Shown: positions 33,700 to 38,081 of the stretch, in pieces
Layout: each line of letters starts with the position of its first letter
Numbering within the stretch: position 1 is the first letter of the stretch
From: Gammaproteobacteria bacterium
GTDB taxonomy: Bacteria > Pseudomonadota > Gammaproteobacteria > SZUA-229
Assembly: GCA_029882215.1 (NCBI GenBank)
Contig: JAOULC010000030.1
Location: forward strand, 1 to 38,081
DNA length: 38,081 bases
Direction of reading: 5' to 3'
Program-made: the position numbers and the translations under genes
The notes under the pieces: model-generated
Database searches by the model: none
What the model was told of the DNA's origin: nothing
What the model saw: only the letters and a program-made list of their open reading frames with translations

Positions 33700-34155
33700 A
33701 TGAAACAATTAAGACAAAAACTGTTATCCACACTGTTGTTGTTACCTTTTATGGTCAGTGCAGCGGCAGAAGAAAAACCAATGCCAATGCCGGTTGATCC
33801 CTTATCGGTATCGAGTATTGCCAATATGCTCATGGGGCTTGGGCTGGTGCTGGCGATTATTTTTATCATGGCCTGGGTTGTAAAACGCATGGGAGGCATG
33901 CAGCTGGCCGGCTCGCAGCAGCTAAAAATATTGGCCGGTTTGTCATTAGGTGCAAGAGAAAAAGTCATCTTAATACAGGTAGAAAATAAGCGCATGGTAT
34001 TAGGTGTTGCACAAGGACAGGTAAACGCTCTACATGTATTTGACGGCGATTACGATAATGTTGAAAACACGACAAATATTACAGCCACCGATTTCAAAGA
34101 AAAAATGCTGCAGGCATTGAATAACACGCTTAAAAATAAGCCCGCTGAAAAATGA
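33700..34155 (+). CDS. fliO: Flagellar biosynthesis protein FliO
   Basis: 151 residues. A signal-like N-terminus ([18 protein letters not shown]), a short periplasmic segment, one membrane helix ([20 protein letters not shown]) and the conserved cytoplasmic turn [20 protein letters not shown], then [15 protein letters not shown]. FliO assists FliP assembly in the export gate. The stop overlaps the fliP start in an ATGA, so the two are co-translated. Confidence 0.93.
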
Positions 34156-34937
34156 ACATAATAAGACTCAAATCATTTTGTGAATTAATAACAGCTAAAA
34201 AAGCACTGCTGATCCTGATTGCTATAACAGCAGGTTTATTGCCAGCAGCGGTTTTTGCAGATGCCGGGCTAACCGCCATAACCGTTCAGGATACAGCGGT
34301 CGGTAAGACATACAGTGTAACCTTACAGATAGTCGCTTTAATGACGGTGCTGACACTGTTGCCCGCACTGTTATTAACCATGACATCTTTCACCCGGATC
34401 ATTATCGTGCTGTCAATTTTACGCCAGGCGCTGGGGACGGCTCAGACACCGTCAAACCAGGTATTAATTGGTCTCTCTCTGTTTCTGACTTTTTTCATCA
34501 TGTCACCGGTCTTTACCAAAGTGTATAACGAAGCGTATCTGCCTTACTCCAGCGAGAAAATATCGGCAGATGATGCCATAGAAAAAGTAAAAGAACCTTT
34601 CAGGGCTTTTATGCTGGCACAAACAAGAGAGGATGATATCGCCTTGTTTGCACGCATCTCTGATCACGGTGCGATAGACTCGGCTGACAACGTGCCATTT
34701 TCTTTATTAATGCCGGCGTTTCTGACCAGTGAGTTAAAAACAGCTTTTCAGATTGGCTTTATGTTATTCATCCCGTTTTTGATTATTGATCTGGTGGTTG
34801 CTTCGGTATTAATGGCAATGGGTATGATGATGCTGTCACCACTGATTATTTCATTACCATTCAAGCTGATGTTGTTTGTTTTGATAGATGGCTGGGCGTT
34901 AGTGACAGGTACACTCGCGATGAGTTTTGTTACTTAG
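34152..34937 (+). CDS. fliP: Flagellar export gate protein FliP
   Basis: 261 residues with a cleavable-type signal region ([19 protein letters not shown]). Conserved helices are [20 protein letters not shown], then [20 protein letters not shown], the [14 protein letters not shown] segment, and the C-terminal [20 protein letters not shown] and [18 protein letters not shown]. It is a core pore subunit of the type III export gate (FliPQR). It is the last flagellar gene visible: the usual fliQ, fliR and flhB do not follow, and no fliQ-like start is found in the next 170 bases. Confidence 0.96.
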
Positions 34938-35107
34938 GTGTATAGTTTTTTTAGTCAAACTTTAAAGTTAAAGTCAAAGAAGTCGGTAGTCGACCGACAG
35001 CGAGTAACCTTTTTTGCTCGTACAAAGCTTGCCCATCCTGCTCACACCTCTTACCTACATCTATGTCGGCAAAAAAAGTCATCCAAAAAATACGCCCTAA
35101 CACTGTT
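34938..35107. other. Junction between fliP and the IS remnant
   Basis: 170 bases without a gene. It holds a short inverted repeat GTCGGT / ACCGAC (about 34983-34999) and T-rich tracts. It does not resemble the start of fliQ in any frame. It may be the remains of an insertion or deletion that removed the operon's continuation. Confidence 0.5.
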
Positions 35108-35803
35108 TGAATCGCCACTAGTCCCTTAGACGACTTAACAGTCGTTTTTCGAAATTCTCTCCGTACTCTACAGGTGATAACTGATTATTGGAACCATGTC
35201 GTCGCTGACAATTATAAAACAGTTCAATATATTTAAAGATATCTTGTCTGGCTTCTTGCCGGGTAGAGTAGATTTTTCTTTTAACACGTTCTCGTTTCAG
35301 TAATTGGAAAAAGCTTTCTGCAACGGCATTATCATGACAATTACCGCGACGACTCATACTGCCTTCAAGGCCATTGTTCTTTAAAAAGGTATGCCAGCCA
35401 TGGCTGCTGTACTGACTTCCTTGGACAAAATTCACCGTGACTTTTGTCATCGGTTTTCGTCTCCACACAGCCATTAGCAATGCGTTTAATGCAAGCTTCT
35501 TCGTCATGCGTTGCTGCATTGACCCACCAATGACTCGACGAGAAAACAAATCAATAACGACAGCAAGATATAACCAGTCCTCATGGTTTCAGCATTGGGT
35601 CCGTATTTCCTAATCCAGGCATAAAGACTGTGTGTGGTTGTACCTAACCGACTAGATACTTCGGCCACACTATGACCACGTTCTGTGACTTGACGGACGG
35701 CTTCAATTTTAAATTCTTCAGCATATCGTTTGCTACTCATAAGCCCATCTCTTTTAGCTATTATTTCTCGCTGAAAGGTGTCTAGCAAACTAGTGGTGAT
35801 TCA
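35108..35803 (-). mobile_element. IS3-family insertion-sequence remnant (internally deleted)
   Basis: The ends match as terminal inverted repeats: reading inward, the left end is TGAATCGCCACTAGT and the right end (complement) is TGAATCACCACTAGT; agreement continues with CTAGAC/TTAGAC a few bases on. The whole is 696 bp, against about 1.2-1.3 kb for an intact IS3-family element. The transposase reads on the minus strand. No 3-4 base target duplication is visible (GTT on one side, AAA on the other). Confidence 0.85.
35118..35740 (-). pseudogene. IS3-family transposase orfA/orfB, deleted and inactive
   Basis: OrfA begins at the ATG at 35740 (MSSKRYAEEFKIEAVRQVTE, then a helix-turn-helix with HSVAEVSSRLGTTTHSLYAW) and breaks off around 35585. 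The other frame resumes at about 35579 with DWLYLAVVIDLFSRR of OrfB, so the end of OrfA, the frameshift region and roughly half of OrfB are missing, including the first catalytic Asp region. The downstream part keeps LEGSMSRRGNCHDNAVAESF (catalytic Glu region), but the second Asp block, normally HSDQGSQY, reads NFVQGSQY. The enzyme cannot be active. The sequence closely follows the IS3-group consensus where it survives. Confidence 0.88.
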
Positions 35804-35986
35804 AAACTCATATCAGTAAAACACTTATTTTTACTATGGTATTCAAATGTTTTTTGAAACATTGGATACCTTCAGCTAACCGCAGATGATAAAAGGAGGG
35901 ATGATTTTTTGGTTATGAATTGATAAAAACTCCTGCTTTATCATCACCACTCGTCCCTGTGGCTAAAGTATGAATATAGTCGCTTA
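35804..35986. other. Region between IS remnant and the cassette-like genes
   Basis: 183 bases without a gene. Next to the stop of the STAS-like gene, on the minus strand, is GCCTGATAAGCG, which resembles the start of an attC site (GCCTAACAAGCG) with two changes. No matching second half is present before the IS, so a truncated attC is possible but unproven. Confidence 0.35.
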
Positions 35987-36355
35987 TCAGGCTAATAGCC
36001 AGTTATTTGCATTATTAAGATTTGGAAAATATTTAACTTCCCATGAGCTGCTACTGGCTCCTTTCTCGTATGATTCGAATAATTCTAATACCTTTTTATT
36101 TTCTGTTATAACGGCAATTTTTATATGTGGATTACTAATAGCTGCAGCTGCGTCCATAGCTCCAACTAAACGAAAATTTGAGTCTGTTATTTCCAGTTTA
36201 TCAACTTCTAAAAGGTTGATGATGAGGTAACGAATTTCATCAAATTTAGGGCTCCCATAAAACTGTGAAAGAATTTCTTTTAATTCCAAGAGATTTATAG
36301 TTCCTTTAAACTCGGCAGTAGCTCCTTTTTCATTCCAAATTAATTGATAGCTCAT
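35987..36355 (-). CDS. STAS/SpoIIAA-like small protein (cassette-type gene)
   Basis: 122 residues. Alternating strands and helices fit a SpoIIAA/STAS-like fold: YQLIWNEKGATAEFKGTINL, then IRYLIINLLEVDKLEITDSN, AMDAAAAISNPHIKIAVITE and a C-terminal ANNWLLA helix. No signal peptide. It has the same layout as the protein at 37169 (opening strand, Gly turn, I/V-rich strands, xxWLA end), suggesting a common family. The start is 27 bases after the recombination end of an attC-like site, and the stop lies in an attC-like half-site, as in integron cassettes. Partner and function unknown. Confidence 0.72.
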   Translation of the reverse strand: MSYQLIWNEKGATAEFKGTINLLELKEILSQFYGSPKFDEIRYLIINLLEVDKLEITDSNFRLVGAMDAAAAISNPHIKIAVITENKKVLELFESYEKGASSSSWEVKYFPNLNNANNWLLA

Positions 36356-36381
36356 AGCGCTTCTCTAGTTATGAAATTATA

Positions 36382-36459
36382 GCTTAACGTTTAGCTTGAG
36401 AGGGCGCTGTAAGGTGATACCCGTGAGCGAAGCGAACAAACTCAAACGCATTATTAGCT
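36382..36459 (-). repeat. attC-like site 2 (integron cassette recombination site)
   Basis: Reading on the minus strand: R'' AGCTAAT (36459-36453), spacer, L'' GTTTGAG, a central palindrome TTCGCTTCGCTCAC, then L' CTCAAGC, a 5-base spacer TAAAC and R' GTTAAGC (36388-36382). R' fits GTTRRRY exactly; R'' departs from RYYYAAC (AAT in place of AAC). L'' and L' pair with one G:T. The 78-bp length and spacing are those of attC sites. Confidence 0.62.
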
Positions 36460-36569
36460 GGTATTAACTAAATCAATGTAAATTATTATTGATAATAGTA
36501 GACATTAAGAATATAACAATCTTCTATGCTTTATATTAACAGGCTTTCTAAAGGCCCAAAATCCACATT

Positions 36570-37082
36570 TTATTTGCCAATTAATAAATTTATGTCAGTT
36601 GGTATATCTTTAGGTTTCTTCATTAAAACTCTACCACCTTTAGTGTCATTAGGTATTTGACTATATGCCTCATACAAATCATCAGCTAAGGATTTAGATA
36701 GTTTCTCTATAATGGTTTGAGCGAGTACCATAGTTTCAGTGCTTATATTTGTAGGGTTTTATCTGTTTTGGTAACATAGTTCATATAATGTATCAAGATG
36801 ATCGAGGACTTAATTGTCCTGCTTTGTGAGTGGAAAAGGAATACCACTTGCTACCAGATCTTGCCTCAAGTGCTGTAAAGAGTGAGTGCCATTAAATTCA
36901 TCATTGATATGAAGTAAGCATGATTTAAGCATTAGCTCAACCGATAAATGTAGAATGTAACCACCAGAATCAAATGCCTCAGGACTCTCGTTTAACAATA
37001 CTTTTGCGGCACCATAGTGACCAATTAAGGAATGAAGAAGATCCTCAGGTTCATAGCCGTCAGATTTTTTATATATAGTCAT
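36570..37082 (-). pseudogene. HEPN-like protein gene with two in-frame stop codons
   Basis: One frame runs from the ATG at 37082 to a TAA at 36572-36570 (170 codons), interrupted by TAA at codons 91 and 108. Between and after the stops the coding sense continues without frame change: LTKQDN-stop-VLDHLDTLYELCYQNR-stop-NPTNISTETMV and on to DINLLIGK. The intact N-terminal part (GAAKVLLNESPEAFDSGGYI, then LHLSVELMLKSCLLHINDEF and GTHSLQHLRQDL) resembles HEPN-type helical proteins found in accessory islands. The nearly untouched frame indicates a recent loss or a population variant. It starts within 8 bases of the attC-like site at 37090. Confidence 0.72.
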
Positions 37083-37089
37083 TTAGTGC

Positions 37090-37174
37090 ACATATCGATT
37101 CAATAAGGGGCCGCCGCAGCTTGGCGGTTCCAGTGTGCGTTTTTTTGCGTGCGATCTTGATTGGCTTGTTAGGC
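37090..37174 (-). repeat. attC-like site 1 (integron cassette recombination site)
   Basis: On the minus strand: R'' GCCTAAC (37174-37168, exact RYYYAAC), then AAG, L'' CCAATCAAG, a central arm with CCGCC / GGCGG, L' CCTTATTG, spacer AATCG and R' GATATGT (37096-37090). R' departs from the conserved GTT by one base (GAT). The stop codon of the upstream gene (37169) lies inside R'', which is characteristic of cassette genes. 85 bp. Confidence 0.62.
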
Positions 37175-37558
37175 TTTGTCTAATTTTGTTGCCAGCCATT
37201 TATTTGCTTCTTCACGAGTTTCGAATGTTCGAATGCTATCAGAACTATCCTTTATATATTCTTTCCATAAATCACCCAATGATCTAACTAAATCATTAGG
37301 CGATATGAATGCCGTGATTATATTGCCATTTATATCATTTATATTTGTGTCTAATTCAGAAATAGCTTTTACTTCTTCTACAGAAACGTAGTTTTCTGTA
37401 ACATTACTTTTATCGATGATTTTAAACTTTAATTTTGCAACTACTTTTGGTGAGTGGATTTCTTTATGGATTTCAATAATATCACTTCCGTGGACAACAC
37501 CAGAAAGAATAAACTCGATCCCTTGACCTTCTTCCAAATATTTAACTTTGATTGTCAT
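37169..37558 (-). CDS. STAS/SpoIIAA-like small protein (cassette-type gene)
   Basis: 129 residues from the ATG at 37558, preceded by AGAGA; a longer frame to 37600 starts inside an operator-like palindrome and is rejected. It opens MTIKVKYLEEGQGIEFILSG and ends FETREEANKWLATKLDKA, with strands LKFKIIDKSN and GNIITAFISPND between helices. This is a SpoIIAA/STAS-like layout, like the 122-residue neighbour at 35987. The stop codon is part of the attC-like R'' heptamer. Its own promoter with two flanking palindromes lies upstream. No partner is identifiable. Confidence 0.72.
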   Translation of the reverse strand: MTIKVKYLEEGQGIEFILSGVVHGSDIIEIHKEIHSPKVVAKLKFKIIDKSNVTENYVSVEEVKAISELDTNINDINGNIITAFISPNDLVRSLGDLWKEYIKDSSDSIRTFETREEANKWLATKLDKA

Positions 37559-37588
37559 CGTACATTTCTCTGGCAGACCAATATTTAA

Positions 37589-37610
37589 GTATACGACCAC
37601 GGTCGTATAC
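37589..37610. promoter_or_regulatory. Operator-like palindrome O1
   Basis: Arms GTATACGACC and GGTCGTATAC around AC form a perfect 10-bp dyad. It lies from about +11 to +32 of the predicted start of the STAS-like gene's transcript and 31 bases before its ATG. The size and symmetry fit a TetR- or similar dimer-repressor site; the regulator is not in the window. Confidence 0.72.
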
Positions 37611-37627
37611 CCTTTTTTCGCTACTGA

Positions 37628-37656
37628 GTTATATTGAAAATCTATATCAATATCAA
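37628..37656 (-). promoter_or_regulatory. Sigma-70-like promoter of the STAS-like cassette gene
   Basis: On the minus strand, -35 TTGATA (37656-37651) and -10 TATAAC (37633-37628) are separated by exactly 17 bases. Operator-like palindrome O1 is immediately downstream and O2 about 70 bases upstream of the -10. Confidence 0.65.
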
Positions 37657-37702
37657 CATGTTATTTCCATAGTTCACACATATATGATCGCTGCTCTGAG
37701 AT

Positions 37703-37720
37703 ATGCGACCATGGTCGTAT
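37703..37720. promoter_or_regulatory. Operator-like palindrome O2
   Basis: ATGCGACC-AT-GGTCGTAT, arms of 8 bp with one mismatch; the central 12 bases are a perfect dyad. It shares CGACC..GGTCGTAT with O1, and the centres are 112 bases apart, consistent with binding of the same protein upstream and downstream of the promoter. Confidence 0.65.
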
Positions 37721-38081
37721 TTGCTTTTTCAATATGCCAGTATTATTACATAATTTATATCCATTGATATCAATCACTTAGAGTTAGAGTGAAAAACTAT
37801 TACATTTCTTATTCTGTTTTTATTAAAAAATATCTAATGTGAGCGCGTTACTACTGAACTAGACACTCGGCTGAGTAAATATAAGTATCACTACTGTTTT
37901 AACTTGTTATGTGTCTTTTGAATATGGGGTGCAAAAAAAGTCATATAAACGTTAAGTATTAAGGTTAAATGAGTAGGTAGGACGTAGTCGTCAGTTTAAA
38001 GATTTAATCTCTTGTTGGGTTTTGACTTACCCACCCCATTTAAGCCGGCCGAGGTGGGAGTAATATTTACGGGGGGGCGGA
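37721..38081. other. AT-rich end of window without recognisable gene
   Basis: 361 bases with no ORF of note on either strand and no integrase. A weak inverted pair TTACCCACC / GGTGGGAGTAA lies at about 38027-38061, and the window finishes in a G-rich run, which may indicate a contig end. A GTTGGGT heptamer at 38014-38020 fits the attC core on the minus strand, but without a partner. Confidence 0.4.

Follow-up and report, generated by a model that had tools for sequence, protein, structure and literature searches.

A probable integrase-less, degraded cassette array between fliP and fliQ and its likely origin in the integron of the same genome

Three small minus-strand genes and the two spacers between them, lying from 37.6 to 36.0 kb of a contig in a draft genome of 3.43 Mb and 144 contigs, probably constitute a short, degraded cassette array that lacks an integrase (a CALIN-type locus) and derives from the genome's own integron. 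The window analysed here is the whole of this contig (C86, 38,081 bp). Read along the minus strand, a copy of the segment upstream of intI is followed by gene, attC, gene, attC and gene, all inside an insert of 3.46 kb that separates fliP from fliQ. We base this reading on two spacer elements that outrank the rest of the window and the shuffled sequences, on the homology of one of them to an attC site elsewhere in the genome, on the presence of a resident IntI with its cassette arrays, and on the homology of the cluster head to the intI-upstream region. Further support comes from the stop codon of the first gene, which falls inside R'', from a STAS–attC–STAS arrangement in a related genome, and from the short fliP–fliQ gap of other genomes. 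Counted against it are the weak response of the covariance models, the lack of a folding excess over shuffles, the scarcity of attC sites beside most STAS-gene relatives, the placement of attI by position and junction only, and the likeness of two other copies of the segment past the supposed crossover. The locus adds an example to a known class of features; its unusual part is the set of scattered attI/Pc-like copies.

Table 1. Coordinates of the features discussed (window numbering unless a locus is named)
Feature	Position	Strand	Remarks
fliP, bordering the 3463-bp insert on the left	34152..34937	+	
IS3-family remnant beyond the cluster tail	35108..35803	-	both inverted repeats (TGAATCRCCACTAGT), internal deletion
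Gene 3, intact, predicted STAS/SpoIIAA fold	35987..36355	-	AlphaFold model and Foldseek
Site 2, degenerate attC	36382..36459	-	78 bp; rank 2 by profile; 15.7 bits with R2
Gene 2, HEPN-like pseudogene	36570..37082	-	in-frame TAA at 36812 and 36761
Site 1, degenerate attC	37090..37174	-	85 bp; rank 1 in the window by profile, missed by covariance models
Gene 1, STAS-like, intact	37169..37561	-	stop TAA 37171-37169 inside R'' of site 1
Head region, Pc/attI-like copy of the intI-upstream segment	37592..37810	-	87% over 224 columns to C67:43800-44021
Palindrome B, terminator-like, points away from the cassettes	37589..37610	+	half of the 42-bp palindrome of C97/C119
Pc-like promoter TTGATA-17-TATAAC, reads into the cassettes	37628..37656	-	consensus match only
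Palindrome A, terminator-like, points away from the cassettes	37703..37720	+	in head region
Overlap with contig C30, leading to fliQ	37952..38081		131 columns, 99%
Further copy of the segment (C97)	L027:1-192		
Further copy of the segment (C119)	L028:100-271		
Further copy of the segment (C67)	L006:13801-14033		

Degenerate attC sites and the genes they separate

The spacers were scored with a paired attC profile in which R''/R' and L''/L' are explicit pairs and the loop length is free. Seeds were taken from arrays beside intI in other phyla, a Pseudoxanthomonas array and class 1 integron plasmids; version 1 of the profile holds 12 foreign seeds and version 2 holds 19, that is, these 12 and seven resident attC sites. 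The design of the profile postdates the first view of both sites, and neither site is among its seeds. With 12 seeds, sites 1 and 2 scored 23.5 and 22.4 bits and took ranks 1 and 2 over both strands of the window, the next-best score being 19.0 bits. When the 1.8-kb stretch at 35.9–37.7 kb was shuffled 150 times with its dinucleotide composition preserved, the best match averaged 11.5 bits and one reached 22.6, while the second-best match never exceeded 13.4 bits. With 19 seeds the two sites scored 26.3 and 26.1 bits, compared with a shuffle maximum of 19.4. Elsewhere in the genome, 111 kb outside the arrays gave chance scores of up to 21.9 bits, so that a single site of this kind would be unconvincing, whereas two such sites in place are convincing.

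The covariance models responded less clearly. Model R1, built from 17 foreign seeds, returned only chance matches in the window and recovered neither site. Model R2, to which resident seeds were added, recovered site 2 weakly, with an E value of 0.24 over 82 kb and 0.0053 over 1.8 kb, and did not recover site 1. When its filters are switched off, R2 misses long sites, including its own training sites from C141; this mode therefore says little about sites of such length, and default filters were used afterwards. Site 2 agrees with the resident attC at C141:4925-5006 at 56 of 78 bases, including TTGTTCGCTnCGCTCACGGG in the loop, and is, by this alignment, homologous to it. Because that resident site is an R2 seed, the R2 score of site 2 partly reflects this homology.

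Both sites have the order R''-L''-L'-R', paired arms and an extrahelical base. The boxes are GCCTAAC (R'') and GATATGT (R') in site 1, and AGCTAAT (R'') and GTTAAGC (R') in site 2. The conserved AAC/GTT core triplets are thus not kept throughout, GTT being changed to GAT in R' of site 1 and AAC to AAT in R'' of site 2, and each altered box departs from the consensus a second time (ATGT in the former, G at position 2 in the latter). The arms of site 1 (AAT[C]AAG / CTTATT) pair fully with bases that differ from those of most seeds, which should be expected of a real attC stem; in site 2, one L pair is missing. A stable bottom-strand hairpin was not seen for either site when compared with shuffles (z of 0.26 and 0.79); among six resident sites in the same test, the homologue of site 2 gave -0.29 and the other five lay at z -1.5 to -5.5.

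Much of this had been read from the letters in the initial annotation. The lengths and positions it gave for the 85- and 78-bp elements are exact, the paired profile finds the arrangement of boxes it proposed in both of them, the two core changes were called correctly, and the next genes do begin shortly after R', with an ATG 7 and 26 bases past it. The placement of stop codons in or next to R'' holds for gene 1 and fails for gene 2, which stops 110 bases upstream of site 2. In answer to the covariance-model check it had proposed for both elements, the models R1 and R2 built here reject site 1, and R2 recovers site 2 weakly.

Gene 2, named a HEPN-like pseudogene from the start, does contain two in-frame stop codons. 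Read through both, it matches Pfam HEPN at 19.8 bits (E 9e-4), just under the cut-off of 22, and a search of 273 further genomes from the class found no relatives of it. Gene 3 has no match in Pfam; its AlphaFold model (pLDDT 82.7) has SpoIIAA/STAS structures as its best Foldseek matches (E 1.7e-4 to 1e-3), from which a STAS/SpoIIAA fold is predicted. Searches with genes 1 and 3 retrieve the same relatives in other genomes. A recent duplication as the origin of these two genes was considered and rejected, as their products give no BLASTP alignment and 22% identity when alignment is forced; gene 1 is at most a distant relative. Gene 1 had no match in a plasmid search, phage searches with gene 1 and with the head region were likewise negative, and an Rfam scan of the whole window returned no matches. 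Downstream of gene 3, the paired profile recognised no third attC.

In a same-genus genome (G002, L148), a STAS gene, an attC site (TCCTAAC...GTTAGGT) and a second STAS gene stand head to tail, and the stop codon of the first lies inside R''. In most other genera, relatives of the STAS genes have no attC nearby. A conserved, contiguous three-gene operon was looked for in relatives, following the initial annotation, and none was found. Its reading of the cluster, as what is left of a cassette array whose two attC sites have degenerated, is the best supported, by the profile and shuffles, the homology to C141 and the arrangement in G002.

The resident integron and the head of the cluster

Integrons recombine cassettes through IntI, which joins attI, double-stranded and cut at G|TT, to the folded bottom strand of attC; the promoter Pc drives the first cassettes. 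The absence of an integrase, reported at the outset, is correct for the locus, where no intI fragment was found at 34938-38081 (3.1 kb of the window) or in the end of C30, and does not extend to the genome. An intact IntI, the sole one of the genome, is encoded at C67:42724-43701 (456 bits against a cut-off of 265), 331 bp from the contig end, and cassette arrays with clear attC sites are present on C10, C45 and C141. These sites show little or no damage and score 34–48 bits with R2. A source of cassettes therefore exists in the genome. The last cassette of the C141 array (L170:3936-4370) ends in GCCTAACAAG with no R' after it, a truncated attC at the array end. Many relatives have contigs that break off within a few hundred bases of intI on its upstream side, which would be expected if the attI-proximal sequence were repeated or strain-variable.

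The head region directly precedes the first cassette and is about 220 bp long. The core of this region, 140 bp long, is also carried by C97 (90%) and C119 (82%), in each case at the left contig end; both of these copies are without intI, and each contig ends at the copy. Beyond the core, on the intI side, the C67 and window copies share some 80–90 bp, and C97 and C119 share another flank. Homology to the intI-upstream region ends about 100 bp short of the expected intI start. An intI pseudogene near the attI-like copies was rejected, as no intI fragment was found near any of the three intI-less copies (window, C97 and C119). Two other candidate readings of the repeat were also set aside: a family-wide element, since it is confined to this genome except for one 26-bp match, and a genome-wide operator formed by the TACGACC palindromes, since 10 of 10 exact matches lie inside the four copies. 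As the intI-upstream copy stands before the first cassette, the locus is an array head without intI. Of the two options left by the initial annotation, a CALIN-type cluster or the tail of an array continuing beyond the window, the former is the better reading and the latter does not hold.

The promoter-like pair TTGATA-17-TATAAC is kept in the four copies (TATAAG in C119) and is absent from a stricter promoter scan. The copies also hold palindromic, terminator-like stems oriented away from the cassettes. In C97 and C119, a perfect palindrome of 42 bp adjoins the supposed crossover, and its other half is absent in the window. The core junction of the window reads AAATA|TT at about 37577, with ATT where GTT is expected. 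The three copies that reach the junction match one another as far as ...TATACTTAAATR|TT and mostly diverge afterwards (TTAAATGC, TTATAAGC, TTGGTCTG), at the position expected for a crossover between attI and attC. Past this supposed crossover, C97 and C119 show some further likeness (GCTTATGA), so the boundary is suggestive rather than sharp. From position and junction only, we infer that the intI-upstream segment contains attI.

Place of insertion and origin of the cluster

The window carries fliM, fliN, fliO and fliP, and the overlapping contig C30 carries ORFs for fliQ, fliR, flhB, flhA and flhF. Beyond position 38081, where the initial annotation proposed to look for intI, lies fliQ. The fliP–fliQ gap is 3463 bp here as opposed to 134 bp in two same-genus genomes, and a third same-genus genome has another insert at this junction; in G002 (L179:2284-3780), the different insert after fliP consists of the dispersed repeat described below and a long reverse ORF, exonuclease-like by eye. 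In other genera of the family (L182, L183, L185-L187, L191), glutaredoxin-like and cysG-like genes, not fliQ, follow fliP, so that the fliP–fliQ junction is interrupted differently there. The cassette block has pieces of a dispersed intergenic repeat on either side (34962-35025, 35050-35107 and 38020-38074), which looks as though it had inserted into a single copy of this repeat between fliP and fliQ. The repeat is also found at L175:1488-2032 (C22).

A CALIN is a cluster of attC sites lacking an integron-integrase, and such clusters have been proposed to be degraded integrons (IntegronFinder 2.0, PMC9024848); in a large survey they were about as numerous as complete integrons (PMC9024848). 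The present cluster resembles them in its two attC-like sites, its single-gene cassettes and a locus without intI, here flanked by fliP and fliQ, and differs in the intI-upstream/Pc/attI-like copy at its head and in sites too decayed for an ordinary model. The attC count is two by the paired profile and one, weakly, by R2. The available part of a study of Xanthomonas describes CALINs away from the ilvD integron, attC clusters off the platform that are taken as traces of past integron activity, as the present cluster seems to be; that part mentions no attI or Pc copies at such loci, unlike the attI/Pc-like copy seen here (PMC12444791). With the resident integron (C67, C10, C45 and C141) the cluster shares the intI-upstream region, the type of attC and the layout of cassettes, but its own attC sites are damaged, unlike the resident ones, which are intact or nearly so. 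It shares with G002 (L148) two STAS-like genes of the same family, the first with its stop inside R'', whereas G002 has no HEPN gene between them and a single 48-bp attC whose R' keeps the consensus. From a complete integron it differs by the missing intI; its intI-upstream copy has a promoter-like pair and an ATT core in place of GTT.

Three routes to CALINs have been proposed, off-target insertion, loss of intI and rearrangement (PMC8618304). That there are no attC sites at all, and that three unrelated small genes are separated by chance spacers, would fit the failure of the generic model R1 and the 21.9 bits that the profile reaches by chance. We consider it very improbable, given that the shuffles never produced two same-strand sites each placed directly ahead of a following gene, that site 2 has a homologue among the resident attC sites, and that intI-upstream homology stands at the cluster head. 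Off-target insertion of the cassettes by the resident IntI acting in trans, with the upstream repeat being unrelated, MITE-like or regulatory in nature, and lying beside intI by coincidence, is a published route (PMC8618304) for which the genome offers an intact IntI, and the repeat does have similar palindromes at both ends and four occurrences. Insertion of this kind would not, however, bring along about 220 bp of intI-upstream sequence, and the flanks shared pairwise by C67 with the window and by C97 with C119 are unexpected from independent insertions of a small repeat; we regard it as quite unlikely. A second complete integron that lost its intI in place, also a published route (PMC8618304), would account for the correct order of head region and cassettes. 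It is nonetheless unlikely: neither the window's 3.1 kb nor the end of C30 holds a trace of intI, the intI-upstream homology stops before the expected intI start, and the two same-genus genomes with the short gap have no insert at this site.

We favour rearrangement over loss of intI in place because of the short fliP–fliQ gap in relatives and the absent traces of intI, although the two are not fully separable. In the favoured rearrangement, a copy or relocation without intI would have brought the Pc/attI end of the platform and the first cassettes into the fliP–fliQ interval. The IS3-family element would have come to sit at the cluster tail, and decay would have followed in one triplet of each attC, in the attI-like core and in the middle gene. 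That the intI-upstream end is retained without intI favours either a rearranged platform end or a lost intI over one-by-one off-target insertion.

The cluster is probably frozen. Capture and excision of cassettes are probably dead or very inefficient, even though IntI could act in trans, because the junction reads A|TT, one core triplet is changed in each attC and the sites fold no better than shuffles. Transcription from the Pc-like promoter may persist for the two intact STAS-like genes. At present the cluster is a documented fossil, of use as an illustration and for testing how far the detection of attC sites by models can reach. That the copies on C97, C119 and the window are several integrase-free platforms for the landing and expression of cassettes, served, now or once, by one IntI in trans, is a doubtful but conceivable extension; should cassettes also be carried by the copies on C97 and C119, a single integrase could supply several platforms of expression.
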